Position numbers and translations under genes: made by a program. The notes under the pieces were generated by a model that saw only the letters and a list, made by a program, of their open reading frames with translations, was not told the DNA's origin and did not search any database. A stretch of 64,000 bases of DNA from Symbiodinium natans. Lineage: Eukaryota; Sar; Dinophyceae; Suessiales; Symbiodiniaceae. Shown here in pieces: positions 6,591-41,823 of this stretch (within the stretch, counting starts at the first letter, position 1; every line of letters starts with the position of its first letter). The stretch covers positions 482,555 to 546,554 of the forward strand of contig CAJNDS010002035.1 of assembly GCA_905221605.1 (NCBI GenBank), in the 5' to 3' direction.

Positions 6591-6599
6591 TTGTAGTGC

Positions 6600-23632: not shown

Positions 23633-24239
23633 CTCTGAACGTATGACTAGGAGCCGAGGGAAGCGGTTCCAAGTTGAGGGTTTAGGGTGAATAGCCCCTA
23701 CAGAATTCTCATTGGCCTCTATCGTAGGGGTTTTAGGGGTCTATGTGCTTGGGGACGAGGGACTTTTTCTGCAGACTGTCCAGACACCGACTGTGAGACA
23801 CGTCCTGTGGCCGGTCGAACTTTTTAGTTTCACCCAGGCGACCTCCCAGATTTGGTGGGTTGATCCAAATCATGGACCCTTTCTGGACACCCTAAACTCT
23901 AAGGCCTTGAAATCGAGGGCCCATCATTTTGATCAACCCGCCCTTCTTTTGCGAAGCCGTCTTCGCCGGCTTGCAAAGAGGTCGCACTAGCTTACACCCG
24001 CACGTGCTCTCATGCATGCTTGCGCCAGAGGTTCCAACAACTTTCTCAACCCTAAACCCTAAACCCTAAACCCTAAACCCTAAACCCTAAACCCTAAACC
24101 CTCTACAAAATCCGAGCCCCATGCCCCAAAGCGGCCTTAAGATGCCTTAAGTCTGTCTGTATGAGTTAAGACTCTAAGCGGTGAGGTGCCGCCAACTTAG
24201 GGCTTGGTATCTCAGAGTGCCCAGTTCTTATGGAAGCTG

Positions 24240-24330
24240 TGCTGCAACACATATATAGATAGCTATATATATATATGTATATATATATATGTATATATAT
24301 ATATATGTATATATACATACTGGACACGCG
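24240..24330. repeat. TATATG/TATATA microsatellite
   Basis: Alternating TA tracts with interspersed G. A CCCTAAA array lies upstream at 24049-24102. Confidence 0.85.
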
Positions 24331-24645
24331 CACATGCCGAAGAGCGCTTGGAACGTGCTTACACTTCCCAAGTTTTCGCAACGAAGCCTGGGTTGATTTA
24401 GCTCCAATGGTCTTCAAGGACGGGCAGAGAGCCCGCCAGCTGGGGGGGCTGTTTCAATAGGGTTTAGGGCGGTTTAGGGTTTAGGGTTTAGGGTTTAGGG
24501 TTTAGGCCTAGACTGCTAACAAGTGGGTTCCATTCTTTGAAAGTCCCCAAACCATCTTTACAACAACCCCCCATGCTGTGCCAAGCCGTGAACGCCTTGG
24601 CAGTGAAAGAGCTTGCAGTTGTCCGAATTTCGGGTTTAGGGCCAG

Positions 24646-24767
24646 GGTTTAGGGTTTAGGGTTTAGGGTTTAGGGTTTAGGGTTTAGGGTTTAGGGTTTA
24701 GGGTTTAGGGTTTAGGGTTTAGGGTTTAGGGTTTAGGGTTTAGGGTTTAGGGTTTAGGGTTTAGGGC
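24646..24767 (+). repeat. Interstitial telomere-like array TTTAGGG x17
   Basis: A perfect heptamer array with no interruption. It ends 65 bp before a PPR coding fragment. Confidence 0.92.
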
Positions 24768-24831
24768 TCAGTCAGGTCTAAGATCTTCTCCGAATGCCGA
24801 ATCTAGAGTGAGAGATCCTCCGCGCTCGAGC

Positions 24832-24882
24832 GCGGAGGCCTTTGCGGCGCTGCGCGCGCAGGGACTCCAACCCAACGAGGCG
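24832..24882 (+). CDS. PPR motif fragment: second helix and loop
   Basis: The frame reads AEAFAALRAQGLQPNEA, a textbook PPR second helix (A..F..L...G) ending in the Leu-Gln-Pro-Asn loop. Coding composition is GC-rich. The fragment lies between a 17-unit TTTAGGG array and a TTTGGGG-type array (24940-25110). It is the first of seven plus-strand PPR fragments up to 29.3 kb and probably an exon of the same gene. Exact splice sites are not resolved. Confidence 0.55.
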
Positions 24883-24939
24883 CGGGGACCCAGGGCTCCG
24901 AAGGGCTCATGTAGGTTGGGTTACGTTGAGGGACTAGGG

Positions 24940-25110
24940 TTTGTAATTTGGGGTTTGGGTTTGGGGTTTAGGGTTTGAAGTTTATGCTTTGGAGTTTGGG
25001 GTTTGGGGTTTAGGGTTTGAGGTTTATGGTTTGGAGTTTGGGGTTTGGGGTTTGGGGTTTGGGGTTTAGGGTTTGAGGTTTATGGTTTGGAGTTTGGGGT
25101 TTGGGGTTTG
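24940..25110 (+). repeat. TTTGGGG/TTTAGGG variant array
   Basis: Units of GGTTTGGGGTTT type with GAGGTTTATG spacers, arranged as two or three copies of a roughly 60-bp higher-order block. Confidence 0.75.
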
Positions 25111-25111
25111 G

Positions 25112-25204
25112 GGGTAGTTCTCTAAATTAGGGTCACTTTGGAGGGGATCTCCTTTGCAAGGTGCCGTACTCTATAGGGACCCACAAGGGACCCTGAATTG
25201 CCCG
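25112..25204. mobile_element. MITE-like element, family B copy 3
   Basis: GGGTAGTTCTCTAAATTAGGGT starts the element. The right end, GACCCTGAATTGCCC, is a diverged inverse. Confidence 0.5.
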
Positions 25205-25710
25205 GACCATGGTTTGAGGTTTCTTGGGTTTTGGGGGGTTTCTTGGTTTGCGGGGGTTCCTCCATAGCTTCAGGTCGGGTGGCCGGGTCCCTCTTTTGTG
25301 GTTGTCTGCTGTAGTGAGCTTGTTGGTACTAAAGACGGCCCAAAGTCTTCAACTCTAAAAAAAAAGTTAGGTTACTAGAGCCCTTCGGGGCAGAATAAGT
25401 AGGTCACTGGAAGTACAGGGAGAAGTCAAAACCAGAGTTTCGCAGGTGACCTACACGGCGTTGCTGCGCTGGGCCCTCAAAGCACGGAAGCTCCACCGGT
25501 ATTTGCAGGTTTATAGGCCGGGCGTTGAAATTGTCTATGGGGTTCACAGAGGGTTTATAGGGCTTGCAGACTTTCAAGGGCTTGAGCTTTGTAGGGCTTA
25601 CAGGGTTTATGGGGCTCACAGGCTTTTACGGGTTTGAGGTTTGCGGCCTAGTGCAGGGCCTAACATCACATCAACACTGGCCCGCACAGCCCATGCAAAA
25701 AGCCTGGGTT

Positions 25711-25757
25711 AACCCCTTAAGCACAGTTTGTAGTTGGTTAATAAGTACCATGAACCT
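25711..25757 (-). repeat. Short dispersed repeat, family M
   Basis: AAGCACAGTTTG and AATAAGTACCATGAACC occur inverted at 62321-62366 (GGTTCATGGTACTTAT, AACTGTGCTT) and in diverged form at 61747-61816. Confidence 0.5.
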
Positions 25758-26099
25758 TCGTTCCTTTGGGAAAAGAGGCGCCCGCCTGGCGGCCAAAGAC
25801 ATGGCGGGCGCCCGTGAGCTTGCGGCAACGGGGCGGCTTAACGAGGTGACCCGTACGCGGACGGGATTCTTTGGGTTTGGGATTTGGGGTTTGGGGTTTG
25901 GGGTTTGGGGTTTGGGGTGTGGGTGTAGGGTGTAGGGTTCAGGGTTTCGGTTTTAGGGTTTAGGGTTCAGGTTTAGGGTTTAGGGTTTAGGGAGTCAATT
26001 TGGAAGCACACTTATCAATAAGGACCTGCATGGTGACCGGGCGTGGGTATTGTCAAAGCCCTGCCTTTATCTGCGAACCTTCAAGTCAAGTAGGGTTCA

Positions 26100-26275
26100 C
26101 ATATCTACGGTCCTCAGCTCCGAAGCGCCTGAGGTCCTAAGCTCCGAAGCTCCAAAGGTCCTAAGCTCCTAAGGTCCCAAGCTCCCAAGCTCCCAAGCTC
26201 CTAAGCTCCTAAGCTCCGAAGCTCCTAAGCTCCCAAGCTCCTAAGCTCCCAAGCTCGTACGTCCTCTATAGGTCT
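26100..26275. repeat. AAGCTCCT octamer-type tandem repeat
   Basis: Degenerate AAGCTCC(T/C/G) units are repeated about fifteen times. The same motif is present, shorter, near 33560-33600 in the duplicated block. Confidence 0.75.
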
Positions 26276-26310
26276 TAAGGTCCTAAGGTCCTAGAGTCCT
26301 TTGGTCCCGT

Positions 26311-26349
26311 CTGGAGGTGGGCTTCACACTTCTCATCAACGCGCACGCC
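26311..26349 (+). CDS. PPR motif fragment: first helix
   Basis: The frame reads LEVGFTLLINAHA, matching the FT.LI.A.. first helix of a PPR motif. Like the fragments at 27009, 27750 and 28835, it stops being PPR-like at the Ala-(His/Tyr)-Ala position. That suggests a conserved intron site between the two helices. A diverged duplicate lies at 33616-33654. Confidence 0.5.
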
Positions 26350-26643
26350 ATGCTTGGGCCTCAGAGCTAAGCCCCAAAACCCTAAACCTCAAAGCCCCAA
26401 TACCTCAGAAAACCCTAAACCCATAAACCTTTAAACCCTTAAAACCCTAAACCCTAAATAAACCCTAGAACCCTAACCCTAAACCCTAGACCCCTCAACC
26501 GAGCTTCTGGGTGCTTTGTCAGGGCGCCCTCTCACACACTAAACACGATTTTTTTATGGTTGTTCATATAAAACCCAAGAGGACATTTAAAATAATATCT
26601 TGATTAAGGTTCTAAGGGGAGTTTTGTTATAGGGGGCCCTCTC

Positions 26644-26727
26644 AGGACCCTAAACCCTAAACCCTAAACCCTAAACCCTAAACCCTAAACCCTAAACCCT
26701 AAACCCTAAACCCTAAACCCTAAACCT
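26644..26727 (-). repeat. Interstitial telomere-like array CCCTAAA x12, in an apparent intron
   Basis: A perfect array ending about 28 bp upstream of the 3' splice-like CTCTCAG that precedes the next PPR fragment. Confidence 0.9.
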
Positions 26728-26754
26728 GGGTGCTTTGTAAGGGGGCCCTCTCAG

Positions 26755-26820
26755 GTCCGGAGATGTCCGGGGCGCGGAGGAGGCCTTTGAGCTGCTCAGC
26801 AAGCAGCCGCGCCCTCGACG
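26755..26820 (+). CDS. PPR motif fragment: second helix
   Basis: After CCCTCTCAG the frame reads (x)SGDVRGAEEAFELLSKQPRP, a PPR second helix (G...GAEEAFELL). It would follow the first-helix fragment at 26311. A duplicate at 33854-33918 keeps the acceptor-like CTCTCAG and most codons, and the two copies diverge right after the Pro-Arg codons. This agrees with an exon end there. Confidence 0.6.
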
Positions 26821-26894
26821 ATGGAGGAGGTTTCAGGGGCTGGGAAGGTCCTAAGCTTAGCAGCCTTAAGCAAGGCGGGAGTCGGGAATCCGCA

Positions 26895-26949
26895 AACCCT
26901 AAACCCTAAACCCTAAACCCTAAACCCTAAACCCTAAACCCTAAACCCT
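26895..26949 (-). repeat. Interstitial telomere-like array CCCTAAA x8, in an apparent intron
   Basis: A perfect array between the PPR fragments at 26755 and 27009. Confidence 0.9.
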
Positions 26950-27008
26950 GCACTGTGTCGGGGGGGAGAGGGGGGAGGGTTCTCTAAAGTTGGGGGGCCC
27001 CAAGGTGG

Positions 27009-27056
27009 AAGCCGAACCTGGCTTCCTACACGGCCCTGATGAAAGCCTATGCAAAG
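27009..27056 (+). CDS. PPR motif fragment: loop and first helix
   Basis: The frame reads KPNLASYTALMKAYAK, a canonical Pro-Asn-xxx-(T/S)Y-xxL(I/M)xAYAK motif start. It fits directly after the second-helix fragment at 26755. A decayed copy of its 3' half is at 34033-34050. Confidence 0.6.
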
Positions 27057-27749
27057 GCCGGCGGGTTGTTGTCTGGGTATCAAGGTTTCGGGTTTAGGGT
27101 TCGGGGTTTAGGGTTTGGGGTGTAGGGTTTGGGGTTTAGGGTTTGGGGTTTAGGGTTTAGGGCTAGGGTTTAGGCTTTCAGCCAGAAACAAACCCAAAGA
27201 GCGGCAGCATTCTTTCAGAAGTGCTGGAGGGCATCGGGTTCGCGGATTAGTGCCAGCAGCATCGGAAATAATCCCGTGATCCGATAGGCGAGGGACGCGC
27301 AGCGCGCCGACGAAGTGCTGGCGCAGATTCAAAGTCTAAGCCGGTGGCTCAGCACGCCGGACGGCAAGAAGTTGATGCGGTGTCCACGTCTGTAGAGGTT
27401 CGACCAGCATGGGCTCTTGGCTGCGCGCATGGCTTCAGAATACCATTAAAAGTAAGACCTTCCGCGACAGCCAGATGCTTCCCCACTCTGGGTTCTGCAG
27501 TCGTCGCACCTTGAGGGCAAGAGGGAGAACCAGTCATTGAAGGCCTGGATTCTCTGTAGGCTCGTGTATAGGGCGGGCAGGCTGCGGCAAAGGGCCACAA
27601 AAGGCATCCAAACCATGCAAAACACACCCCGGACCGTCAGCAAACACAAACGACGTGAAGACACGGATGCTTTGATGCGGCACATTTGCAACCCTGAGGC
27701 CGCAAGCTTAAACTTAAAAACCCAAAACCTCAAACCCTAAACCCCACAG

Positions 27750-27823
27750 ATTTCCTTGAGCGCAACCCAGGTCTGCAGCCAAACGCGGCGACCTACGCCA
27801 CCCTCATTTCGGCACACGCCAAG
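27750..27823 (+). CDS. PPR motif fragment: helix end, loop and next first helix
   Basis: After CCCTAAACCCCACAG, a 3' splice-like site whose pyrimidine tract is made of telomere-like units, the frame reads (x)FLERNPGLQPNAATYATLISAHAK. That is the end of a PPR second helix, the Leu-Gln-Pro-Asn loop and a complete first helix. AAG is followed by GTGGCG, a possible GT donor; an unspliced frame would stop after Ala-Pro-Glu. Confidence 0.65.
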
Positions 27824-27850
27824 GTGGCGCCCGAGTGACGAGAGTGGCTT

Positions 27851-27918
27851 GGGGTTTAGGGTTTAGGGTTTAGGGTTTAGGGTTTAGGGTTTAGGGTTTA
27901 GGGTTTAGGGTTTAGGGT
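27851..27918 (+). repeat. Interstitial telomere-like array TTTAGGG x9, in an apparent intron
   Basis: A perfect array starting 28 bp after the PPR fragment at 27750. Confidence 0.9.
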
Positions 27919-28834
27919 GGCTATGGTGGCTACGTAGTTCATGTTGATTCCATTCTGCCCTGTTAAGTAGCGAAGCTGTCCATCACCAACCGCAGAAGCG
28001 GGGGCCTCTCTCCAATTCTGCTGGGCTACCAGAGGCAATAGAAACTGGGGATCCAGGTGTCTAAGAGGCTCTTGAACATACTCTCTGTTGCCCGACTTTT
28101 TTCTTCATCATGTTTCCAAGATGCAGCTTGAACAGGTCCAGACTTCCAAGAACACTGGAGGTCTTGACCCTAGACCCTAGACCCTAGACCCTAAACCCTA
28201 AACCCTAGGGTTTGGGGCAGAACCCCCTCAAAGATGAGAGGCACAGCAGCTTCCGCGAGCACTGGAGCTCTTCCAGCTACAGGGGGAGCAGCTCAGCGGG
28301 GATGAGGAAGTGAAGCTTTAGGGTTTAGGATTTAGGGTTTAGGGTTTAGGGTTTATAGGTCTGCTTCTTAAACCCTAGACCCTTGAGCTTCCAAACCCTA
28401 AGCCCTTGAGCTTTTGAACCCTAAGCCCTTCAGCTTCTAAACCCCTTTGCTCTTCCAGTAAGAATCTCAAAAACCTAAAACTACATGGTTCGGAACCCTT
28501 TCAATCTTGTACAGCTACAGCTAGGAGCCTGAATCATAGGCATGCTTCGTGTTGCTTATCCGGGTTTAAGGTTCAGGGTTCAGGGTTCAGGGTTTAGGGT
28601 TTGAGCTTAGAATATGTCAGGTTCTCTTGCGGGGTTTCAGGCGATCTTGCAACAGGATAGGTCTGGTGCACCGGAGAACGCATGTGGGTTTGCAGCAAAA
28701 ATCCCGGTCGACTTCTGTTCTGCGATATGAAATTATATGATCATATAGATCATATAGAATGTCGGATACCTCAATTTGCGGGTAAACTCCGGGTCGAGAG
28801 TTGTGCCACCCGCATGCTTCGGGGTGCTGCCTGC

Positions 28835-28885
28835 CTCAGGCCCACGCTGTCCAGCGGCACGGCGCTCATGTCCGCTTACGCCAGG
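28835..28885 (+). CDS. PPR motif fragment: loop and first helix
   Basis: The frame reads LRPTLSSGTALMSAYAR, a PPR loop and first helix. As in the other fragments, similarity ends at the AYA(R/K) position, here CCAGG followed by CCGGC. Confidence 0.5.
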
Positions 28886-29219
28886 CCGGCTTCTTTCTCC
28901 GCGCCAGCTCGGGTTTAGGGTTTAGGGTTTACGGTTCAGAGTTTGTAGGGTATAGGCTTCCGGGTTTGGGTTTAGGGTTTAGGGATGTTCGTAGGGTATT
29001 AAGGTCGAGAGTCCATGTCGTAGACGTCTCGTGATGGAACCTGCACACGCACGGGCAGCATGGAGCTGGCTGGCAGCAAGACTCAGGTAGGTAGTAGACC
29101 ATAGCATACATCATCAGCCCGAAGCCCAAAAGCCTAAACCCTATATACCCTAAACCCTCAACCCTCAACCCTCAACCCTCAACCCTAGCCATAAACCCTA
29201 AACCCTAAGCAGCAGGCAA

Positions 29220-29288
29220 AGGGACCAGTCGGGCGCACAGCGGGTGCTCTCCGAAATGGTCTCTGCCTCGATCAGGCCGGAGCTTCAC
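29220..29288 (+). CDS. PPR motif fragment: second helix and loop
   Basis: The frame reads DQSGAQRVLSEMVSASIRPEL, a PPR second helix (GAQRVLSEM) and Ile-Arg-Pro loop. It is the complement of the first helix at 28835. It is the last PPR fragment I recognise in this series. Confidence 0.55.
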
Positions 29289-29384
29289 TCCGCGAGTGGT
29301 GTTTGGTGTTTATTCGGTTGTTTATCGGTTTTTGTCGGGTTTCTTACAGTGCGGCTCACAGTGTCCTTCTAGGGTAATTCATAG

Positions 29385-29445
29385 AGACAGGAGAGGGAGG
29401 GAGAGGGAGGGAGAGAGAGAGAAGGAGAGAGAGACAGACCGAGAA
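29385..29445. repeat. GAGA-rich simple sequence
   Basis: GGGAGGGAGA and GAGAGA units. The overlapping 130-codon plus frame (29296-29688) shows no recognisable domain. Confidence 0.75.
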
Positions 29446-30760
29446 GCAAGCTTCCGGCCTCCGCGACTCTTTGAGCTGAATCTATTTGAGGAAGAGGCTT
29501 CAGCGACCTTCGAACCCCCAGAAGCTTCAGTGGCGTTGCTGATCAAGATTTCTAGGATTCGAAATCTCGCTAGCTTGAGGACTCGAGCTTGTGCGAGTCT
29601 TGTCCGCTTGTCTTGCAACTTTAGCCGCGACCGCTTAAGTAGCAAACACAGGGGTCACCCTTGTGTACAACCCTTACTAGGGAGATAATTACCCCAAATA
29701 TGGTTGAAGAAGAGGAAGAGAGTCAGAAGGAAGTGACAGTGACAGGGCCAGCTTGAGCAAGACTAAGCAAGTCGACCACCAGCTTGTATTTTATTCGCAA
29801 CCTGCATATCTTACAGGGCAGTTTGCACTGAGACCATAGGCCCCAACCCTTAACACTCTCTCGAGGGTGGGGGAGGGGGAGTGTGACGGGGGTCCTGAGT
29901 CCTGAGGACCAATCTGCAAGGTTTTGAACCTTCAGAAGTAGGTACTACTGGGACCCAGGTATGGTTTGGCCCGAAGCTCTAAAACCCCACTACGGTAAAC
30001 CCTTCACCCCCTACTACCCTAAACCCTAACCCCGAACCCCAGATGGCTTGAGTGGCTCGCAGGCCGGATGCCTTATGCATCAGGCAGCTGAAGTGGGCCC
30101 AAGGTGCGCCACCACCCCAGGGATTATCGGGCTTAGGGTATTAGAGAGTTTAGGGTGTAGAGTTTCAGGTTTAGGGCTTGTAGGGTTTAGGTTTCTCAGG
30201 GTTTGGGGTTCAGTCATTTGGGCTTGAAGGGCTTGAGGGCTTGTAGGGAGTTCGAGGTTTAGTTGCGGGTTTAGCTAGTGCTGGCTTTCCCCTGCAACTT
30301 GCACCTTGAAGCCTGCTCAGTCGAAGCTAGGCGTTGCCACCTTTCCTTGAACAGCCTCATCTCCCTGTGCCCCCGTACGCACCTGTTCTCGATTGTCTTA
30401 TCTCCCGAACGTTCTCACTGACTCTGCTTGTTCTGGATCGGAATGAAGTGCCATGACGTGCCTTATGTGCCCAGAATGATGTGCAACCCTTGAAGGGGCC
30501 ATAGAGAAACGATAAAGAGCCCGATTCCCGATAAAGAGCCAGGAGGCCCTGCGGCTCGCGCTGAACAGCGGCGCAGGGCGGAGCACGCTGGCGATGGAAA
30601 AGCGCGCAGCGGGCTTGCCGACAGATCTCGAGCAGCTTGCTTTCGGACAGACGTGGGTGCATGCGGGAGGCTGCGGGAGCGAAGCAGGAGTGAGAAGTGA
30701 GAGTTGTCCACAAGTCCCCAGAGTAATCCTTGATGTGCCTCGCGATTTCTTCTGCTCCAC

Positions 30761-31588
30761 ATGCCCACTTCGTTTGTCGCTCACCAGTGGCTCAGCAGCA
30801 GTAGCAACGGCCGCAAGCCACCCCCCCCAGCTTCATCTGTGCAGCAGATCGTGCAGCTGCCGCCGGCCTTTGTTGGCGAGCAGGCTGTTTATGGCCCTGA
30901 CTACCGTGGAGGGCTGGCGCCCCCACCCGAGTGGTGGGCACGCGTCGCACATCCATTGGCGCCCTGGCCCCCACAGCCGGTTCGCGTGCAAGCAGTGGCT
31001 GTGCATCCCTGCCAACAGTGGCACTCCATCATGGGCTTGAGTTATCAACCCATGCCCATGCCCCAGCCAACAGTGCCATGGTGTTGTGCGCCACAAATGC
31101 CTCACATGCCCATTGCACACGCCATGCCCCACCAGACAGAGCCGTGGTGCGGAGCTCCACAGATGCCCCCGCAGATGGCACAAATGGTGACGTTTCTGCC
31201 ACCTGCACAAGTGCCTCCCCCACATCAGCCCCCACAACTGGCCCCTCAACTCCCCCAGCATGTGGCACTTCAAGCGTCCGCGCCACTCCCCACGACAGCA
31301 CCCACAGCACCCGCATTGGCCACAGAAAAGCCCGCCAAGCCCGCCAAGCCCACGAAGCCCGCAAAGCCGTCGTGGGCGGACCTGTCGGAAAACCCGGCGG
31401 CTCCTCCGAAGTCATGGCTTCCTGGCGAGGCTGAAGAGCTCCCAACGCTTCTCCCCAAGCCCAACACGGGCAAGGGGAAAGGCAAGGGCAAGAAGTCCAG
31501 CAAGGGCAAGGGCAAGAACGGCAACAAAGGTAATGGCAAGGGTCAGGGCAGTCAGGGCAAATCCTGGCAGAATTGGAGCTGGTACTGA
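30761..31588 (+). CDS. Proline-rich protein with Gly-Lys tail, copy 1 (275 aa)
   Basis: I recognise no known family. The protein starts MPTSFVAHQW, then has a conserved block QQIVQLPPAFVGEQAVYG and PPPEWW, and a Pro/Met/His-rich middle with two PWC..PQMP repeats. A Lys-Pro repeat (KPAKPAKPTKP), SWADLSENP, WLPGEAEELPTLLPKPN, a Gly-Lys repeat tract and the ending KSWQNWSWY follow. There is no signal peptide or membrane helix, and most of the chain is probably disordered. The basic GK tract could bind nucleic acid (inference). The start is chosen because the same ATGCCCACTTCG context lies upstream of other copies; only here is it in frame with the rest. No intron is apparent. Confidence 0.7.
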   Translation: MPTSFVAHQWLSSSSNGRKPPPPASSVQQIVQLPPAFVGEQAVYGPDYRGGLAPPPEWWARVAHPLAPWPPQPVRVQAVAVHPCQQWHSIMGLSYQPMPMPQPTVPWCCAPQMPHMPIAHAMPHQTEPWCGAPQMPPQMAQMVTFLPPAQVPPPHQPPQLAPQLPQHVALQASAPLPTTAPTAPALATEKPAKPAKPTKPAKPSWADLSENPAAPPKSWLPGEAEELPTLLPKPNTGKGKGKGKKSSKGKGKNGNKGNGKGQGSQGKSWQNWSWY

Positions 31589-32520
31589 AGGCGGGGCGCC
31601 ACGGCACAGCAATTCGCAGCATGTTGCGCGTGGTGTTGTGTCCATGCAACGTCACGGAAGTTCATGCATGGAAACATGGGGAAGCTTCCAACATGGCCAG
31701 GTGTACAGGACAGTCGGTGATGACTGTCAAATTGGATCGACGAAGGCGCGCGCGCCTCAGCTGCACCAGTGCCGTCGCATAGCACTTGCCTGCATCCGTT
31801 CGCCCGCAAGGACAACACGCTCCTGACCAAGTCAGTGCTCCAGCTCTGTCGCGTTAGACGCCAGAAGGCTTACAAGGGGTGATAAAGCCTTCCCCCTGTT
31901 CAATGGTTTCATGTTTCAGCACCTCGCCAAGCGACTGCCATCGTACTGAGTGCGGTTTTGCTGCCATCCGGGAGAATGTTTGATTGGCCCTCCCAGCTTT
32001 TCAAGACTGCGTAATGTTTTTTTTGCACGGCATCGTGGCGGATGATGCAGCAAGACAGAGTTCACATGAGACTCTTAGACATCACAGTGGCATCACCGTG
32101 GCACTCCTATGACGCTCATGCTGTGAACGTTTCTGCATGCTTTCAGGTCACCTAAGCCCACAGCCCTAAACCTTAAATCGGAAAAAACCCTCGGATGAGG
32201 ATTGCCGTGACGCCCTGTTGACAGTCGAATAGTTATTATTCGTATAGTCCTTATCGGCCTTACTAGCGGCGCGCCCTTGAAACCCCTAAAGCCTCCTCAC
32301 CGAACAGCAGCGCAGGGCAGGGCCCGCTGGCGATGAACAAAAAAGCGCAGCGTGCCTTGCCACAGTTCCGTCCTCTCGTATTTAGCGCTAAACTTCTCGC
32401 AGCGGGCTTGCCGACAGATCCCGAGAAAGCTTTCGAACATGCGAGAGTGAAGCAGGAGTGAGAGTTGTCTGCAAGTCACCAGAGTAATCCTTGATGTGCC
32501 TCGCGAATCCTTCTGCTCCA

Positions 32521-33110
32521 CATGCCCACTTCGTTTGTCGCGCACCATGGTGGCTCAGCAGATTAAAAAAGCCTGCTGGCCAACAAAGGCCGGCGGCAGC
32601 TGTACGATCTGCTGGGCATCAGCCATGATGCTGGTGGTTTGCGGCTGTAGCACAGCCGCAAAACACCAACATCATGGCTGACGCCCAGCAGATCGTACAG
32701 CTGCCGCCGGCCTTTCTTGGCGAGCAGGCTGTTTATGGCCCCCGCCAAGCCCGCGGACCTGTCGGAAGACCCGGCGGCTCTTGCGAGGCTGAGCAGCTCC
32801 CAACGCTTCTCCCAAAGCCCAACACGGGAGAGGGGAATTGGCAAGGGCAAAGGCAAGGGGAAAGGGAAGGGCAAGAACGCCGTTCTTGCCCCTTTCTGTT
32901 TGCCATTTGCCTGTAAGAAAGGATTCGGCAAGGGCCAGGGCGGCCCATGGAGCTGGGAGTGAAGGCGATGTTGCACGTGGTGTTATGTCCATGCGACGTC
33001 ACGAAAGTTCATGGAAACACGGGAGCTTCCAACATGGCGGCCAGGTATACAGGTCAGTCGGTGATGACTGTCATACTACGATGGATCGACGAAGGCGCGT
33101 GCCTCAGCTG
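32521..33110 (+). pseudogene. Proline/GK-rich gene, copy 2, decayed and containing a fold-back palindrome
   Basis: Conserved upstream sequence and ATGCCCACTTCG are present, but the start of the coding region is replaced by a large palindrome (32570-32730). The Pro/Met middle (WCC...PAQVPPP) is deleted, so GEQAVYG runs straight into the Lys-Pro region. The GK tail is disrupted by a second small palindrome (about 32870-32893), and the protein end is WSWE instead of WSWY. Downstream flanking sequence is still recognisable. Surely not encoding the family protein. Confidence 0.75.
32570..32730. repeat. Large fold-back palindrome: two 79-nt arms, 3-nt loop
   Basis: Arm 32570-32648 (starting AGCCTGCTGGCC) is nearly the exact reverse complement of arm 32652-32730 (ending GCGAGCAGGCT). 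The right arm is the normal 5' coding sequence of the gene family (GCCCAGCAGATCGTACAGCT); the left arm is its inverted copy. Only a handful of mismatches are visible. Confidence 0.9.
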
Positions 33111-33317
33111 CACCTTATAACCTGAGAATCTTAGAGCCTCAACACTTACAATCTTGTTTCGTTTATAACCTTACAACCTTACACCCTTCTAGCCTTAGAA
33201 CCTTATAGCCGTATGGCCTTATGGCCTTAGAGAACCTTATAGAACTTTAGAACCTTAAAACCTTACAGCAACCGCTTGATACCTCTGGGAAGAGAGGCGC
33301 CCCCCTGGCGGCCTTCG

Positions 33318-33399
33318 GGTTTAGGGTTTAGGGTTTATAGGGTTTAGGGTTTAGGGTTTAGGGTTTAGGGTTTAGGGTTTAGGGTTTAGGGTTTAGGGT
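33318..33399 (+). repeat. Interstitial telomere-like array TTTAGGG x11
   Basis: A near-perfect array. The corresponding place in the 25.8-kb copy holds a TTTGGGG-type array instead. Confidence 0.88.
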
Positions 33400-33615
33400 G
33401 CCAAGTTACTTACAAGTAAGGTTACCTGCATGGTGACCCGACGTGTCTGTGAACCCTCAAGTCGGGTTCTGTGTCTTAAGGTCCTGAGGTAACCCTAAAC
33501 CCTAAACCCTAAACCCTAAACCCTAAAAAGGTACCATGAACCTCCAAGTCGGGTCCTGAGGCCCTAAGCTCCTAAGGTCCTAAACTTCAAAGGTCCTAAG
33601 GTCCCAGGGTCCCGT

Positions 33616-33918
33616 CTGGAGGTGGGCTTCACACTTCTCATCAACATGCATGCCATGCTTAGTTCTCAGCCCTATACCCTAGACCTCAAAACCCTAAATC
33701 CTAAAGCTTAAAACCCTCAAACCCTAAACCTTAAAACCCTGAACCCTAAAACGCCTAAGAACCCTAAACCGAGCTTATGGACCCTAAACCCTATAGTTAT
33801 AGACCCCTCAACCGAGCTTCTCCGGGTGCTTTGTACGGGGGGCCCCCTCTCAGGTCCGGTGATGTCCCGGGCACGGAGGAGGCCCTGGAGCTGCTCAGCA
33901 AGCAGCCGCGCCCTCGAC
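33616..33918 (+). pseudogene. Duplicated PPR fragments (first helix, second helix)
   Basis: 33616-33654 reads LEVGFTLLINMHA, and 33854-33918 reads SGDVPGTEEALELLSKQP, matching the pieces at 26311 and 26755. Acceptor-like CTCTCAG is kept before the second piece. The substitutions GDVRGAEEAF to GDVPGTEEAL place a Pro inside the helix. The third piece (34033-34050) keeps only MKAYAK. I read this block as a pseudogene segment. Confidence 0.5.
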
Positions 33919-34435
33919 TAGGCCCCACCCCCTCAACCCTAAACCCTAAACCCTCCCAAAACCCTAAACCCTAAACCCTAAACCCCTAACAAAAAAACAC
34001 GGGATCCTACAAACAGGGTTTTTCGAGCCCGGATGAAAGCCTATGCAAAGGCCGGGCGGGTTGTTGTCTGGGCGGTTTGGGGTTCGGGGTTGAGGGTTCA
34101 GGGTTGTGGGTTTAGGGTTTAGGGTTTCAGCCAGAAAAAACCTAAAGACCGGCAGCATTCTTTCAGAAGGATGAACAGGAAATGGATGCGGCGTCCACGT
34201 AGGCTCTGTAGAGGTTCGACCAGCATGAGCCCTTGGCTGCACTTCGGTCGCGCAGAGCTTCCGCATACGATGACTAATAGGCACCCCCTTGGGATATTTT
34301 TTCTGTTCCCTTGCTGGGTTTAAGAGGACTAAATATTGAGGAATATTTTGTCAGAGGGCTTTAAGGTTCATCCTAGATTAAGTTGAAGGCTTCATTCACC
34401 CTCTTAACTGCGAATCCCAGATGCTTCCCGCACTA

Positions 34436-34898
34436 GACAGCGCCGTGGTGCACTCCGCAGATGCCCCCGCAGATGGCACAAATGGTGACGTTTCTGCCAC
34501 CTGCACAAGTGCCTCCCCCACATCAGCCCCCACAACTGGCCCCTCAAATTCCCCAGCACGTGGCGCTTCAAGCGTCCGTGCCACCGCCCCCCACGACAGC
34601 ACCCACAGCACCCGCATTGGCCACAGAAAAGCCCGCCAAGCCCGCAAAGCCCACGAAGCCCGCAAAGCCCACAAAGCCGTCGTGGGCGGACCTGTCGGAA
34701 AACCCGATGGCTCCTCCCAGTTCGTGGCTTCCTGGCGAGGCTGAAGAGCTCCCAACGCTTCTCCCCAAGCCTAACACGGGCAAGGGGAAAGGCAAAGGCA
34801 AAGGCAAGGGGAAAGGCAAGGGCAAGAACGGCAACAAAGGAAATGGCAAGGGCCAGGGCGGTCAGGGCAAATCCTGGCGCAATTGGAGCTGGTACTGA
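34436..34898 (+). pseudogene. Proline/GK-rich gene, copy 3, 5'-truncated
   Basis: Homology to the family starts abruptly at 34436 within the second PWC..PQMP repeat; everything upstream is unrelated. From the first in-frame ATG at 34461 the frame stays open for 145 codons through the Lys-Pro repeat, SWADLSENP, GEAEELP, a long GK tract and KSWRNWSWY. The 3' part is under no obvious decay, so a short protein is conceivable, but the promoter side and conserved N-terminus are missing. Confidence 0.65.
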
Positions 34899-35957
34899 AG
34901 GCGGGGCGCCACGGCACAGCAATTCGCAGCATGTTGCGCGTGGTGTTGTGTCCATGCGACGTCACGGAAGTTCGGAAGTTCATGGAAACATGGAAGCTTC
35001 CAACACGCCCAGGAATACAGGAGAATCGGTGATGACTGTCAAAGTTTCAAAGTAAGATGGATCGACGAAGGCACGGGCCTCAGCTGCACCTGTGCCGTCG
35101 CATCGCGCTTGCCTGCATCTGTTCGGCCGCAAGGACAATAGGCTCATGACCAAGTGAGTGCTCCAGCCGCTGCAGCTGCGCGGCCCGAAGCTCGAATGAG
35201 CACTGTCGCGTTAGAGGCTGCTCAGCAAGGCTTACAAGGGGTGACAAAGCCTTCCCCCTGTTGAATGGTTTAATGTTTCAGCACCTCGCCAAGCGACTCC
35301 CATCGTACTGGGTGCAGTTTTGCTGCCTGCAGCCGAGGGAATGTGTGATGTGGCCCTGCCAGCATCTAAGACTGAAGGACATATTGTTATTGTTTCCACG
35401 GCATCGTGGCGGATGGTGCAGCAAGACAAAGTTCACACCAGACTTTTACGTCACAGTGGCACTCCTACGACGCTCATGCTGCGAAAGTTGCTGCATGCTT
35501 TCAGTATACACTCACTACACTACACCCTAAGCCGGTGAAACACGGAATCCAGAACCAGCCTCGGATGAGGATTGAAGCTGAGCCTCCTCACCCTGCATGT
35601 CTCTCTTTCACCTGAACGCTCTAACCCTATAGACCCTTTGCCAGCAGGGTTGCTGCAGACGCGGCATGTGCCATGGCTTCCTTTGCATCTTGGATCCTTC
35701 TGCTTCATCCGGCCTCAAGAGTAGGAAGTAGGATTTCGGGCGCTGTAGGGTTCAAGGATTCTTATTGAACTGTGTAAATTCCGGGTTTCTTCACTCCCCC
35801 ACCCTACTGAGAAGCAGCACGCTCTTTCTTGGGCTCTGAGGGTTTAGAAGCAGCACGCTCATCCCTGGGGTCTGAGGTTTAGAAACTTTCCAGGGTTTTC
35901 AAGCGGAACGGTAGATCTACGGGACCCCCCTCTTCCTGCTTTGATTCGCGATGCGCA

Positions 35958-36044
35958 ATGGCCGATGTAGCTGCCTTGCCGCTTGCTGCTGGGCCACTCC
36001 GACACAAGTCTTCTTTTGCAGCACTATCACTAGCATGGGCACAG
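35958..36044 (+). CDS. Possible first exon of a small gene (MADVAALPLAAGPL...), unit 1
   Basis: ATG starts MADVAALPLAAGPLRHKS. The same start and about 25 codons are conserved at 39967 (unit 2) and 46502 (unit 3), after which the copies diverge. Conservation from an ATG over one stretch suggests a coding first exon. A second conserved piece with a shared stop lies at 36254. I do not recognise the protein. Confidence 0.35.
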
Positions 36045-36253
36045 CCTTATAAAAACCCTGAGAGCCCAAAGCTCTGCACATCTCTGAGCATACGCATACC
36101 CCGAGCAGCCCTTAGAGACCGTTGTGCCACAAGCACGAGGTCCCCAAGTTCCCGTAGACACCGTATCGGTTGGAAGCCCTCGCGCCCTGTATACCCTCGA
36201 ACCCCTAATCGTCCTCACCCTAAGCCCTCGAACTCCGAAACGACTTCGTAGCC

Positions 36254-36358
36254 GAAGGTATCCTTCTGGGCACATCACTCGGCTGCCTTGCGGGCTTCGT
36301 GCAGTTCTTTGTTGGGAAGACAGATGCCAAGGTCGCGAAGGGCAGGGTACAAGGTTGA
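36254..36358 (+). CDS. Possible last exon: short membrane-like segment, unit 1
   Basis: The frame reads EGILLGTSLGCLAGFVQFF, then VGKTDAKVAKGRVQG and TGA. The unit 3 copy (46836-46940) has the same frame, the same stop and mostly conservative changes. An ACTTCG(T/C)AG acceptor-like sequence precedes both. The Gly-spaced hydrophobic run could be a single membrane helix. Pairing with the exon at 35958 is inference. Confidence 0.35.
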   Translation, partial: EGILLGTSLGCLAGFVQFFVGKTDAKVAKGRVQG

Positions 36359-36370
36359 GGATTTACTAGC

Positions 36371-36465
36371 TGGTAATAGTTTTTGGTTCTGGGTTCCCAC
36401 TACTGCTACTTCTACTCGTACCTACAAAGTGTATACTTTTTCTCCAGGGCCTACTCCAAAGTAGG
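36371..36465 (+). repeat. Short dispersed repeat, family C copy 2
   Basis: Shares TTGGTTCTGGGTTCCC and CCAAAGTAGG-type ends with 1541-1630. Confidence 0.5.
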
Positions 36466-38156
36466 GCTATAGGGTTTCGGGTTTTTGGGGTTTGCAGGTT
36501 TTTTTGTCAGGAATTCATGTTAGGGGCCTCTGTTACTTGCTTCACAATTCCCTCCAACATTGCGAGATGTTCGCGCACGTCCTAGAATGTCTGGAGCAGG
36601 AGCTCTTCTCAGCAAGTTCCGGCTGCCCAGCACCTCCGGCCCCCTCCCCAACCCCCTTAAAAAGCCGTAACAAACCGATTTTCGGAATGCGAAGAATCTT
36701 CGGGCGAGTCCCCCTCCGCGAGAATCAATTTAGGCGTTGGATGTTGGAGCTCTATGCTCACGAAGCCCCCTAAACCCTCCAAACTCCTTGAACTCTCTCC
36801 ACGGGACCCTGGAGACTCCTGCAATCCCCCAACCCCGCAAGAGCTGCGAAGCTGCCCTGAAAAACAAAACCCTAGAACCATCTACAACCCCAAACCATCA
36901 CCCCCAACCCTTGGGCCTTAAGCACTATCTATCCTGTTGAGCCCCTACCGACCTTGTCTAAGCTCTACCCCGCCCGCCCCTGCGATAATCAAGTCAAGAC
37001 TAGGCTACGCAAGTTGACCTCTCACCAGCTTGTAGAAAAGATGCAACCTGCATATCTTAAAGGGCAGTTGTACTGAGACCACAGGCCCCAAGCTCCCTTA
37101 TCAGCAGGAACCAAACGTGCCTTCTGCAGAGAAGGGGTGGGGAGCGTGAGGGAGGGCGTCCTGAGAACCAACATGCCACCATAGACATGACAGGTTCGGA
37201 GGTTCTGAACCCCCCCCCCAAGTCAGTTTGGCCTCAACCCCGAAAAAAACCTTACGGTAAACCCTAAACCCTAAACCCTAAACCCTAAATCCTCTAAACC
37301 CCAGTTGGCCTCCCGCAGGCCGGATGCCTTCTGCATCAAGCCGCTGGAGTTGGCCCCAGGCGCGCGCGACACCCCCCAGCCTTGATCCAACTGACCCCCG
37401 GTTTAGGGACTGTAGGGTTTAGGTTTCAGGGTTTAGGGCTCAGGTTTCGTGAGGGGCTAGGGGCTTCTGGGCTTGTGAAGAGTCAGGGGTTTAGTTGCTG
37501 GTTCCTAACCCACCCTAGACCCTAAACCCTAAACCCTCTACCCTCTACCCTCTAAACCCTAAACCCTAAACCCTATAAACCGTATAACTAAAGCCTCGCC
37601 TTCGCAACTTGCACCTTCGGGTTGAAGCCTTCTCAGAAAAAGCCAGGCGTCGCCGCCTTTCCTTGAACAGCCTCACCTACCTGTGCCCCGCACGCACCTG
37701 AGATCGACTTCTCCAAAACTTGAAAGATCACACCCGCACCCTATAACCCTACAGTACTTGTACAACTATCCTGTGAACCTTCAAGTAGAGGGTCCTCAGT
37801 GACTCTGCTTGTTCTGCCGAACAAATTCGGGAAGTGCCTTATGTCCCCATGAATGATGTGTACCCCTTGAAGGCTTGAAGGGGCCGCACAGAAACCGTGG
37901 CTTCTAAATCCCAGAATGCCGATAAAGAGCCAGGAGGCCCCGCGGCTCGCGCGCCCTGGGCGGAGCACACGTTGGCGATGGAAAAGCGAGCCGGGCCCTC
38001 TCTTTCATTGGTTCTGGGGTTGAGGGGGTCGTAGCCTAGGATAACTAAAGTTCGGAGAATTTGGGCTGCACAGTGGCTGAGCAGACATGGGTGTATCCGG
38101 GAGTGAAGCAAAAGTGAAGCTGTCCCTGATGTGCCTCACGAATCCTTCTGCTCCAC

Positions 38157-38887
38157 ATGCCCACTGTGTTTGTCGCGCAGCAGTGGCGCAGCAGCTATCA
38201 GTTCAAGCGGCCACAAGCCACCAGCATCATGGCTGATGTGCAGCAGATCGTACAGCTGCCGCCGGCCTTTGTTGGCGAGCAAGCTGTCTACGGCCTTCAG
38301 TACCGTGGAGGGCTGGCGCCCCCACCCGAGTGGTGGGCACACATCGCTCATCCGCTGGCGCCTGGCCCCCACAGCGCGTTCGCATACAAGCGGTGCCTGT
38401 GCATCCCTGCCACCTGTGGCAGTCCATCCCACTGCTGGCAAGGATACACAGGCACCGCTTGTACGCGAACGGGTTATGGGGGCCAGGGCCCCACCAGACA
38501 GAGCCGTGGTGCGGCGCTCCACAGATGATGGCACAAATGGTGACGTATCTGCCACCTGCACAAGTGCCTCCCACACATCAGCCCCCACAACTTGCCCCTC
38601 AACTCCCCCAGCATGTGGCGCTTCAAGCCTCCGTGCCACCGTCCCCTGCTGTGACAGCGCCCACGCCCGCATCCTCCAGAGAAGAAGCCCACGGGCGACC
38701 TGTCGGAAAACCCGGTGGCTCCTCCGAGTTCGTGGCTTCCTGGCGAGGCTGAAGAGCTCCCAACGCTGGCAAGGGCAAGAACTCCTGCAAAGGCAAGGGC
38801 AAGAACTCCAAGAACTCCAGCAGAGGAAATGGCAAGGGCCAGGGTGGTCAGGGCCAGGGCAAATCCTGGCACGATTGGAGCTGGTAG
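38157..38887 (+). pseudogene. Proline/GK-rich gene, copy 4, frameshifted with fold-back
   Basis: The N-terminus is intact (MPTVFVAQQW, then VQQIVQLPPAFVGEQAVYG and PPPEWWAHIAHPLAP). A 2-base loss at about 38361 and a fold-back duplication (38361-38487) then replace the first PWC..PQMP repeat. The family frame resumes near QTEPWCGAPQM, but the Lys-Pro repeat is mostly deleted and the GK tract is degenerate (GKGKNSCKGKGKNS). The final WSWY is cut to WSW by a stop, followed by a second stop. Confidence 0.75.
38361..38487. repeat. Fold-back palindrome: two 52-nt arms, 23-nt spacer
   Basis: Arm 38361-38412 (CCTGGCCCCCACAGCGCGTT...) pairs with 38436-38487 (...CGAACGGGTTATGGGGGCC). About 44 of 52 positions match. 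The left arm is the normal gene sequence; the right arm is an inverted copy. Confidence 0.85.
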
Positions 38888-39353
38888 TGAGGGCGGGGCG
38901 CCACATCACGGCAATTCGCAGCATGTTGCGCGTGGTGTCCATGCGACGTCACGCAAGTTCCTGGAAACATGGAAGCTTCCAACATGGAAAGGTATACAGG
39001 ACAGGTGATGACTGTCATAGTACGATGGATCGACGAAGGCAGCCGAAGGCACGTGCCTCAGTTGCACCTGTGGTGGTGCACTTGTATGCATCTGTTGGGC
39101 CATAAGGATGCGAGGCTCATGAGCAACTCCTCATTCTGTGAAAGTTGCTGCGCGCTTTCAGGACACCATAAGCTCCCAACCGTATAGACCCTAACCCGGA
39201 GAAAAATGGAATCTAGAACCAACCCCCTCAGGTAAGCATTGCCGTGCAACAGGCCTCCTCGCCTTGCAGTTGTCTTCTTGAACTCTGCAAACCCCTTTAA
39301 CAGCCCTAAAGCGGAGAGATCTGAAATCCAGAGTCCAGAGCTGTGAGGGGTCG

Positions 39354-39445
39354 TTTAGGGTTTAGGGTTTAGGGTTTAGGGTTTAGGGTTTAGGGTTTAG
39401 GGTTTAGGGTTTAGGGTTTAGGGTTTAGGGTTTAGGGTTTAGGGC
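39354..39445 (+). repeat. Interstitial telomere-like array TTTAGGG x13
   Basis: A perfect array in the 3' flank of gene copy 4. The matching flanks of copies 5-7 lack it, so it was gained or lost after duplication. Confidence 0.9.
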
Positions 39446-39966
39446 TCCGAACCCTGAAGGCCCGATCGCAGTCATGTGCTATTCCTCGTGTCCAGCTTGT
39501 TCGTAGTCGAATGGCTACTCGAATGGTCCTTGTTGGCCTTGCTCGTGAGCCTTGAGAAGCCCGCTAAAGTCTCCTCGCCGTGCATTTTCTCTTGACTCCG
39601 TCATGTTGAAGGGTGCATCGCCCTGAAACCCTAAACACCCTATAAAACGTAAACACCCTATAAACCCTATACACCCCACAGACCCTAGTCACAAACCCCT
39701 AAAACCCTTGCCAGAAGGGTTGCCGCAGTCGTGGTAATCATGGGCTGGCTATCGCTGCCACCAGCTCACCTTATTAGGAACCAAGGGTTCCTATGGACTA
39801 GAAAACAAGTTGGGGTGCCTCGTTCCCCCCCAGTCCCTACTGAGAAGCAGCACGCGCTCATCCCCGGGCTCTGAGGGCTGGGAAGCTTTCTAATTCGCTG
39901 TGTAGGGTTTTCGGGTGCCTGGCTCGCAGCAGACCTGCGGGGCTCCCGCGTGGCTCCTTTGATGCT

Positions 39967-40155
39967 ATGACCGACGTGGCTGCCTTGCCGCTTGCTGCTG
40001 GGCCACTCCGCCGCAACAAGTCTTGGCTTTTTGCAGCGTTCGCATGGGCACGTTTTCGCGGCTTCGTCCTGCTCAATCCTTATAACTTAACCTTTGGAAG
40101 ATTTTCTTGCGTCTTGACGGTTGGAACTGACTCTCCAAAAGCAGAAGCTTTCTGA
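39967..40155 (+). pseudogene. MADVAALPLAAGPL fragment, unit 2
   Basis: The frame here starts MTDVAALPLAAGPLRRNKS, close to 35958 and 46502 for about 30 codons, then diverges. The second exon-like piece found in units 1 and 3 is missing here, so this copy is probably broken. Confidence 0.35.
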
Positions 40156-41055
40156 CATCTCCGACCAGATTTTATGGACCCTAGATTTTAAAGGGTAGTT
40201 GCGCTGAGACCAAGGCCCGCAACCCTTAACGCTCTCTCCGGGGACGGGTGGCCGGGGGGGAGGGTGATGGGGGGGGGGGGGGGATCCTGAGAGCCAAACA
40301 TGCCTGAGGGTTTAGGGTTTAGGGTTTAGCGTTTAGCGTTTAGCGTTTAGCGTTTAGGGTTTAGGGCTTAGGGTTCCAGAACCCCTCAGAAGTGTAGGTA
40401 GCCAGCTATACGGTTTTGGCCCGAAACCCTGAAACCACATGTTTGAAAGTCAAATAGAACCTAAACACCAGATGGCTTAGTGGCTTGCAGGCCGGAAGCC
40501 TCGCGCATCAAGCCGTTGGAGTTGGCTTCAACTGCCTCAAGCTTTTGGGTTTAGGGAGTTTAGGGTCCGGGGATTGTAGGTTTAGGGTTTAGGTGTTTGG
40601 GGTTCAGTTTTCGGTCAGTTGGGGCTTGAGGGGCTAGGCGCCACCTTTCCTTGAATCATCTCCCCGTACGCGCCTGTTGTCGACTGTCTTATCCCTGACG
40701 AAGTCGAACCTTCAAGTCAAGTAGAACGTTCTCACTAGTACTCTGCTTGTTCTGAATCGGAAGGAGGCACCGTATGCCCCCCAGGATGATGTGCAGCCCT
40801 TGAAGGGGCCATAGAGAAGCACGCTGGCGATGGAAAAGCGCGCAGCGTGCCTTGCCACAGTTCTGTCCTCTTGCACTTAACTCCCCGCAGCGGGCTTGCC
40901 GACACATCCCGAGCATGGGAGCTTTGGGATCGACATGGCATCATCGTCTGCCACTCATCGAGTGATCCTTGATGCCCCTTACCTTCTCCATCACGTTGTT
41001 GCTCACCAGTGGCTCAGCAGCAGTATAGCAACGGCCGCAAGCCTCCAGCTTCGTC

Positions 41056-41823
41056 ATGGCTGCCCAGCAGATCGTGCAGCTGCCGCCGGCCTTTGTCGGC
41101 GAGCAGGCTGTTTATGGCCCTGACTACCGTGGAGGGCTGGCGCCTCCACCCGAGTGGTGGGCACACATCGCCCACCCGTTGGCGCCATGGCCCCCACAGC
41201 CCGTTCGCGTGCAAGCAGTGGCTGTGCATCCCTGCCAACAGTGGCACTCCATCATGGGCTTGAGTTATCAACCCATGCCCATGCCCCAGCCAACAGTGCC
41301 ATGGTGTTGTGCGCCACAAATGCCTCACATGCCCATTGCACACACCATGCCCCACCAGACAGAGCCGTGGTGCGGGACTCCACAGATGCCCCCACAGCTG
41401 GCACAAATGGTGACGTTTCTGCCACCTGCACAAGTGCCTCCCCCACATCAGCCCCCACAACTGGCCCCTCAACTTCCCCAGCACGTGGCGCTTCAAGCGT
41501 CCGTGCCACCGCCCCCCACGACAGCACCCACAGCACCCGCATTGGCCACAGAAAAGCCCGCCAAGCCCGCAAAGCCCACGAAGCCCGCAAAGCCCACAAA
41601 GCCGTCGTGGGCGGACCTGTCGGAAAACCCGATGGCTCCTCCCAGTTCGTGGCTTCCTGGCGAGGCTGAAGAGCTCCCAACGCTTCTCCCCAAGCCCAAC
41701 ACGGGCAAGGGGAAAGGCAAAGGCAAAGGCAAGGGCAAAGGCAAGGGCAAGAGCTCCAGTAAAGGAAATGGCAAGGGTCAGGGCGGTCAGGGCAAATCCT
41801 GGCGCAATTGGAGCTGGTACTGA
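41056..41823 (+). CDS. Proline-rich protein with Gly-Lys tail, copy 5 (255 aa)
   Basis: An intact family member. Residues 4-35 hold QQIVQLPPAFVGEQAVYG and PPPEWW. Residues about 50-160 are Pro/Met/His/Gln-rich with two PWC..PQMP repeats (near 83 and 104). A KPAKPTKP tract lies at about 167-183, SWADLSENP at about 184, WLPGEAEELP at about 199, then about eight Gly-Lys pairs and KSWRNWSWY at the end. The start is the ATG of MAAQQIV, because the ATGCCCACTTCG start of copy 1 is lost upstream. Function unknown; an RNA- or DNA-binding role for the GK tract is only a guess. No intron and no targeting signal seen. Confidence 0.7.
   Translation: MAAQQIVQLPPAFVGEQAVYGPDYRGGLAPPPEWWAHIAHPLAPWPPQPVRVQAVAVHPCQQWHSIMGLSYQPMPMPQPTVPWCCAPQMPHMPIAHTMPHQTEPWCGTPQMPPQLAQMVTFLPPAQVPPPHQPPQLAPQLPQHVALQASVPPPPTTAPTAPALATEKPAKPAKPTKPAKPTKPSWADLSENPMAPPSSWLPGEAEELPTLLPKPNTGKGKGKGKGKGKGKGKSSSKGNGKGQGGQGKSWRNWSWY

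Follow-up and report, generated by a model that had tools for sequence, protein, structure and literature searches.

How a gene can be read across introns that hold long runs of telomere-type repeats is the question raised by a locus of the dinoflagellate Symbiodinium natans. The locus lies at 24.8-29.3 kb of a 64,000-nt window, the whole stretch of DNA analysed here (NCBI GenBank assembly GCA_905221605.1, contig CAJNDS010002035.1, positions 482,555 to 546,554 of the forward strand; coordinates below are those of the window). A preliminary description had placed seven pieces of a pentatricopeptide repeat (PPR) gene there, separated by TTTAGGG and CCCTAAA arrays. The locus is confirmed as a PPR gene cut into micro-exons of ~35-85 nt, as predicted from spliced alignment, and in three array-rich genes computation reveals an orientation rule for the arrays within introns. 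The explanation favoured here, with a probability of roughly 0.55, is that this micro-exon gene lies in an array-dense region and that its intron arrays have been filtered by splicing, leaving TTTAGGG on the donor side and CCCTAAA on the acceptor side.

To model the gene, a cyclic 35-residue PPR profile built from a generic consensus was aligned to the DNA across introns, with GT, GC or GA donors and AG acceptors allowed. Positions 24000-30500 of the plus strand score 187.0, against a mean of 37.7 (standard deviation 8.0, maximum 56.8) for 40 dinucleotide shuffles, and two stiffer intron costs give 158.0 (shuffle maximum 37.8) and 117.8 (maximum 38.2), with 40 shuffles each. The other 6.5-kb tiles of the window, on both strands at the mildest cost, reach at most 71.2, excepting two tiles that overlap the gene. 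Isolated pieces are weak in Pfam (best E 0.0074; 7 of 10 pieces match no family at E≤10). Joining the exons at dinoflagellate-type sites (GC, GT or GA donors and AG/G acceptors, the slash marking the splice site) yields 35-residue PPR repeats, and the translations bear out the earlier claim of plus-strand pieces in motif order. A scan of the spliced translation with PPR profiles, proposed in that description, gives Pfam PPR_2 at E 4.7e-25 and 87.9 bits (cut-off 30); PPR_3, PPR_long, PPR and PPR_1 also lie above their cut-offs. Because the exons were picked with the PPR consensus, the E-values of the spliced protein are inflated, and the proper comparison is with shuffled sequence: of 40 more shuffles, the five that scored best, spliced likewise, matched no Pfam family at E≤1. 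The repeats from exons 26755-27056 and 27288-27823 each have 35 residues by hand count, the second with its donor at 27824, which the mildest-cost alignment placed 9 nt later, at 27833.

By sequence, the spliced protein also matches solved PPR structures (best E 2.7e-58, a designed PPR). When the exons are joined by hand, residues 4-182 of the 193-residue protein align with a frame of 503 residues that runs without interruption at another site in the genome (30% identity, E 6.9e-14). This bears, as a loose test, on the possibility that the pieces come from different, unrelated PPR genes: the joined protein aligns along most of its length with single PPR frames. Since PPR repeats resemble each other, such alignment shows register and order, not orthology. 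Among the 20 best genome PPR matches listed, some of which share a frame, one is the window itself and the other 19 fall in frames of 202-643 residues without interruption, in contrast to the micro-exons of the window gene.

Instead of seven pieces, the model has 9-12 exons, of which those at 25639-25701 and 25778-25845 are weak. The exons, all from spliced alignment, are as follows:

24835-24879, plus strand: PPR exon EAFAALRAQGLQPNE; donor AACGAG/gcgcgg; left border uncertain
25446-25521, plus strand: PPR exon VTYTALLRWALKA..., also seen by Pfam; acceptor cgcag/GTGACC; right border uncertain (25467 or 25521, depending on the cost setting)
25639-25701, plus strand: further weak PPR exon
25778-25845, plus strand: weak PPR exon ending ..LNE, found at the mildest cost only; donor AACGAG/gtgacc
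26317-26351, plus strand: PPR exon VGFTLLINAHA, found at the mildest cost; also retained at 33622-33656 in a downstream copy of part of the gene, described below
26755-26808, plus strand: PPR exon SGDVRGAEEAFELLSKQ, also from comparison with the copy
27005-27056, plus strand: PPR exon WKPNLASYTALMKAYAK, also seen by Pfam; donor GCAAAG/gccggc
27288-27339, plus strand: PPR exon ARDAQRADEVLAQIQSL; acceptor gatag/GCGAGG
27771-27823, plus strand: PPR exon LQPNAATYATLISAHAK, also seen by Pfam; acceptor cccag/GTCTG; donor GCCAAG/gtggcg
28241-28290, plus strand: PPR exon AQQLPRALELFQLQGE; right border uncertain
28840-28884, plus strand: PPR exon PTLSSGTALMSAYA; donor GCCAG/gccggc
29216-29298, plus strand: PPR exon QRDQSGAQRVLSEMVSASIRPELHSAS; right border uncertain

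Intron positions recur relative to the PPR motif, as expected earlier, at two spots. One lies before helix A (NE/V, found twice, once from a weak exon) and the other at the A-Y/H-A-x turn (26351, 27056, 27823 and 28884); the remaining introns fall in the loop (26808, 27339 and 28290). The four pieces said to stop at an Ala-(Tyr/His)-Ala-(Lys/Arg) turn do so at 27056, 27823 and 28884, and the fourth, at 26351, reads AHAM. An acceptor made by the arrays themselves had been proposed at ~27748 (CCCTAAACCCCACAG); it was rejected, as it breaks the 35-residue register and makes the repeat ~8 residues too long, and the register uses 27770 (caacccag/GTCTG). For the counts below, nine of the 13 mildest-cost PPR introns were kept, four touching weak or outlying exons were excluded, and the donor at 27833 was moved to 27824. 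Further PPR exons lie upstream at 2342-6656 of the plus strand (..ILREMQASRMKADLVSYNTVLDAFAKE..VMDEMVQTSVRPGVISYTILIEAHARAG; PPR_2 E 6.6e-16 on the spliced model) and may belong to the same gene across an 18-kb gap or to a second PPR gene.

Telomere-type arrays occupy seven of the nine modelled introns, in agreement with the preliminary description. Both orientations do occur between the pieces; they are not peculiar to the gene, however, as arrays are dense outside it too: the window holds 110 arrays of at least two exact units, covering 2,821 bp, or ~1.7 arrays per kb. Those within the introns include the following:

25952-25992, plus strand: TTTAGGG array within the 5′ portion of intron 25846-26316
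26648-26724, minus strand: CCCTAAA array of 11 units, close to where intron 26352-26754 ends; the copy has one or two units at this place
26897-26945, minus strand: CCCTAAA array of 7 units that lies 59 nt from the acceptor of intron 26809-27004
27149-27162, plus strand: TTTAGGG array within the 5′ portion of intron 27057-27287, with TTTGGGG variants from ~27093
27855-27917, plus strand: TTTAGGG array of 9 units, 31 nt past the donor of intron 27824-28240
28189-28202, minus strand: CCCTAAA array in intron 27824-28240, 38 nt ahead of the acceptor
28331-28351, plus strand: TTTAGGG array towards the 5′ end of intron 28291-28839
28914-28984, plus strand: pair of TTTAGGG arrays towards the 5′ end of intron 28885-29215

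Intron 25846-26316 also contains a run of AGCTCC- or TAAGCTCC-type units at 26130-26260, and similar units precede the copy at 33.55 kb.

A yardstick independent of the PPR profile was provided by chaperonin genes aligned to a profile of 67 archaeal thermosomes and, additionally, by ValRS and CarB genes aligned to E. coli proteins. Together with the PPR gene these give 252 modelled introns in 12 gene sets; locus L051 (contig C797, score 111.7, 13 doubtful introns) was left out. Donors are GC in 143 introns, GT in 75 and GA in 34, and 223 of the 252 acceptors are AG/G; the scoring gave AG/G a 3-unit advantage and preferred GT to GC and GA. The introns thus have the GC and GA donors besides GT and the AG/G acceptor of dinoflagellate nuclear introns, the latter helped by the scoring. 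Introns described for Symbiodinium likewise have GC and GA donors besides GT, a G after the AG and many short exons (PMC4083563), but the GC share here is above the "nearly equal to GT" given there for S. minutum, and oriented telomere arrays, present here, go unmentioned in the excerpt of that account. Array content contrasts sharply by gene. Besides the PPR gene, arrays are dense in the chaperonin genes on C2276 (20 of 24 introns) and C210 (17 of 23), occur in 2 of 23 introns at L047 and 2 of 35 in ValRS on C428, and are absent from the other seven gene sets, CarB on C127 and C1759 among them. The median intron is 69 and 87 nt in the two CarB sets and 337-475 nt in the three array-rich genes.

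The orientation rule emerges from the 244 introns of ≤1200 nt, 43 of which bear arrays (at least two exact units each); the other 8 of the 252 exceed this length and were excluded from the main polarity count. The 5′ halves of these introns hold 21 TTTAGGG and 8 CCCTAAA arrays, the 3′ halves 8 and 25 (Fisher p 2.8e-4). The array nearest the donor is TTTAGGG in 20 cases and CCCTAAA in 7, and that nearest the acceptor is TTTAGGG in 5 and CCCTAAA in 23. Of 29 TTTAGGG arrays, 21 start 6-106 nt past the donor; of 33 CCCTAAA arrays, 26 finish 17-139 nt ahead of the acceptor. Adjacent opposite pairs stand 8 times in the order TTTAGGG-CCCTAAA and once reversed. Introns with a single orientation are polar as well (14, 6, 6 and 15; p 0.013). 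The same polarity appeared in an earlier count on 7 gene sets, also with introns up to 10,000 nt included. In the three array-rich genes, 12 introns carry both orientations, 17 and 15 a single one and 12 none (p 0.42); joint occurrence is not enriched, so each side of the intron follows its own rule. The idea that arrays are seeded because introns are rich in G at the 5′ side and in C at the 3′ side was rejected, as array-free introns lack a clear asymmetry past their first 10 nt.

These counts do not support two earlier suggestions. Arrays were thought able to supply acceptors, but only 1 of the 252 modelled introns (intron 5 of C210) has an acceptor ending in TTTAG and only 1 (intron 2 of L048) a donor starting with GTTTAG, neither of them in the PPR gene; the single TTTAG acceptor fits avoidance of TTTAGGG at acceptors. 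It was also proposed that TTTAGGG arrays could expand without harm to splicing, whereas orientation evidently matters near the acceptor, and the genome-wide pairs agree.

These pairs were counted without gene models, in the whole assembly of 759,417,921 bases on 2,543 contigs. The motif of the dinoflagellate spliced leader has 205 exact matches and its reversed control none, which marks the genome as that of a dinoflagellate. Exact (TTTAGGG)3 occurs at 1,185,204 and 1,184,385 sites on the two strands, the reversed motif at 41 and 33. TTTAGGG is the telomere unit of dinoflagellates (PMC11453091), and the arrays, being tandem telomere units at non-terminal sites, are interstitial telomeric sequences. 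Because the arrangement CCCTAAA-exon-TTTAGGG equals its own reverse complement, exons on either strand are expected to be bracketed in this way if the rule is a general one. Pairs with two exact units on each side of a gap, in opposite orientations, were therefore counted in both orders at three gap ranges, longer arrays being counted several times in both orders alike. At an exon-like gap of 110-140 nt, CCCTAAA-TTTAGGG outnumbers the reverse 3.4-fold (257,542 vs 75,755). At 15-45 nt the bias is reversed (3,488 vs 8,523), and at 400-430 nt the orders are equal (136,865 vs 138,014). Among the three spacings tried, the excess is confined to the exon-like one, which indicates that exons are bracketed by outward-pointing telomere repeats. 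In either order, opposite arrays are much scarcer at 15-45 nt than at 110-140 nt, perhaps because close inverted arrays are unstable. In a sample that includes the array-rich genes, gaps of 100-150 nt separate 18 of 48 adjacent CCCTAAA/TTTAGGG pairs and 1 of 48 in the reverse order. Coding potential, too, is higher in the bracketed stretches (30 vs 51 others, p 7.5e-5), an excess that persists when known genes are removed (15 vs 25, p 0.010).

The turnover of arrays can be followed in the partial copy of the gene:

33572-34240, plus strand: decayed partial copy of 26266-27424, ~7 kb downstream, first intron 197 nt

The copy retains two exons with their flanking splice sites and has lost most of the third, which marks it as a decayed fragment. 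Its first intron compares with 403 nt in the gene, where the (CCCTAAA)11 array corresponds to the one or two units of the copy, a comparison that covers one duplicated intron. The gene intron has a duplicated 3′ part (26432-26534 and 26651-26753, 83% alike), and a degenerate, older C-rich stretch near the donor is common to gene and copy. These differences indicate that arrays change length within introns while the adjoining exons persist.

Oriented repeats around exons suggest that the splicing machinery sorts or uses them. In the favoured explanation, arrays would arise in introns by telomerase-type insertion or by slippage growth and would then be filtered by splicing. Since AG/G is the acceptor consensus here, each TTTAG/GG unit would be a decoy acceptor and would survive mainly on the donor side. 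CCCTAAA contains no GT, GC, GA or AG and may offer pyrimidines together with a branch-point-like core, CTAAAC, so that it would be harmless or helpful ahead of an acceptor. Just past a donor it is perhaps a liability, where it could be used prematurely as a branch point. Several observations weigh against filtering by splicing. This guess of premature branch-point use is the sole account of why CCCTAAA is scarce near donors, and branch-point-like CTRAH words have no clear peak in 181 array-free introns. The rule has exceptions, in that 5 TTTAGGG arrays are nearest an acceptor within 150 nt (the closest at 31 nt) and 7 CCCTAAA arrays are nearest a donor. Nearly all arrays come from three genes, so that arrays within a gene are not independent, and the introns are defined by alignment models. 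When the single-orientation introns are split by length, neither group reaches significance by itself (p 0.14 below 330 nt, 0.10 above).

The main rival, which we consider unlikely, is that a double-strand break in a short intron was healed by telomerase acting on one or both ends, which were then rejoined with filler DNA. The left stump would then be followed by TTTAGGG and the right one preceded by CCCTAAA, and polarity would record repair, not splicing. Telomerase-linked insertion at breaks has been described for vertebrates (PMC2246262; PMC8537989). Break healing predicts a similar array order, which also counts against filtering by splicing. In the 8 introns that open with TTTAGGG and close with CCCTAAA arrays, the summed length of the two stumps has a median of 87.5 nt, close to the median intron of 85.5 nt in five mostly array-free sets. 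Repair of this kind accords poorly with the polarity of single-orientation introns, with orientations that do not co-occur beyond chance in array-rich genes and with a reverse order that is equally common at 400-430 nt, although the model can be rescued by filler length. Co-option of the telomere repeat genome-wide, as an oriented splice signal around exons, is a doubtful extension of the splicing explanation: UUUAGGG past donors would serve as a G-rich enhancer, and CCCUAAA before acceptors as branch point and pyrimidine run. A further proposal involving splicing is that donor-side UUUAGGG and acceptor-side CCCUAAA pair in an RNA hairpin that brings the splice sites together, a role suggested for inverted repeats of Amoebophrya introners (PMC7789003). 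Complementary arms in the right order do occur in 8 of 9 two-orientation introns of ≤1200 nt, but 34 of the 43 array-bearing introns have one orientation only and joint occurrence is unenriched, which excludes obligatory paired arms and makes a general hairpin very improbable.

It is quite improbable that the PPR exons are relics surviving by chance in a decaying gene, with arrays merely piling up in dead sequence. The weakness of some exons, their uncertain borders and the decayed copy downstream would suit a relic, but the spliced product stands far above shuffles, the two joined repeats retain their 35-residue length, and the polarity recurs in two chaperonin genes, so that the rule is independent of the PPR gene. 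The density of arrays outside the gene might suggest ordinary interstitial repeats scattered regardless of genes, the intron pattern being due to chance, and the 7 of 12 gene sets without intron arrays indicate that array density is regional. Chance scatter is nevertheless a remote prospect given an order asymmetry that rests on hundreds of thousands of counts at exon-like spacing and is absent at 400-430 nt. Spread by a mobile element with telomere-repeat ends, or by an introner family, is hardly credible. Introners have been reported for dinoflagellates (PMC11453091), but 50 array-bearing introns have no recognisable sequence in common apart from telomere-like units, their 183 cross matches being mostly of 16-50 nt and read as variant telomere or low-complexity units; lacking a common repeated intron sequence, they do not form an introner family. 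A dispersed repeat was likewise rejected as the source of the CCCTAAA..TTTAGGG spacing, as 29 bracketed stretches gave just 3 matches, one of which is the known duplicate.

Interstitial telomere repeats, dinoflagellate introns and introners are all already known. Interstitial telomeric sequences elsewhere, such as vertebrate TTAGGG and plant telo boxes, are also short internal arrays in both orientations, some of them genic (PMC6410037; PMC7215372; PMC3022908); the arrays here differ in their density in the window and in being oriented relative to exons genome-wide. Introners of Amoebophrya and other dinoflagellates resemble the present introns in having repeated intron sequence and, in some introns, inverted arms (PMC7789003), but the introns here share no family beyond telomere-type units and their arms are mostly single; TTTAGGG-start and CCCTAAA-end arrays fall within one intron in 8 of the 43. 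In the portions of the open-access literature searched, no description of array orientation relative to splice sites was found, and the excerpts of PMC7789003, PMC11453091, PMC8045281, PMC7245778, PMC4083563 and PMC4201569 contain no orientation rule.

Elsewhere in the window, positions 30700-45800 hold several diverged tandem copies coding for a Pro/Met-rich, GKGKGK-tailed protein, with frames at 30734, 41029, 42904, 44595 and others; the two that were checked have no Pfam match. Two near-identical tandem single-frame genes on the plus strand (53514-54632 and 55264-56403) encode a Cys-rich protein with a likely signal start, and the protein of 55264-56403 has no Pfam match. In all, Pfam found nothing at E≤0.01 in five long window frames outside the PPR gene, and an Rfam scan of the window gave no match.

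Interstitial telomere repeats are usually viewed as repair scars or chromatin features. Under the orientation rule, repeat order would predict exon locations across a 760 Mb genome without gene models, tying repeat gain to splicing and offering a simple exon-finding cue for hard-to-annotate genomes. If the repeats were co-opted, they would supplement the weak signals of dinoflagellate introns, and array gain would be favoured at these spots, linking telomere-repeat synthesis to intron growth. Intron recognition and growth in dinoflagellates thereby become testable questions with existing RNA data.

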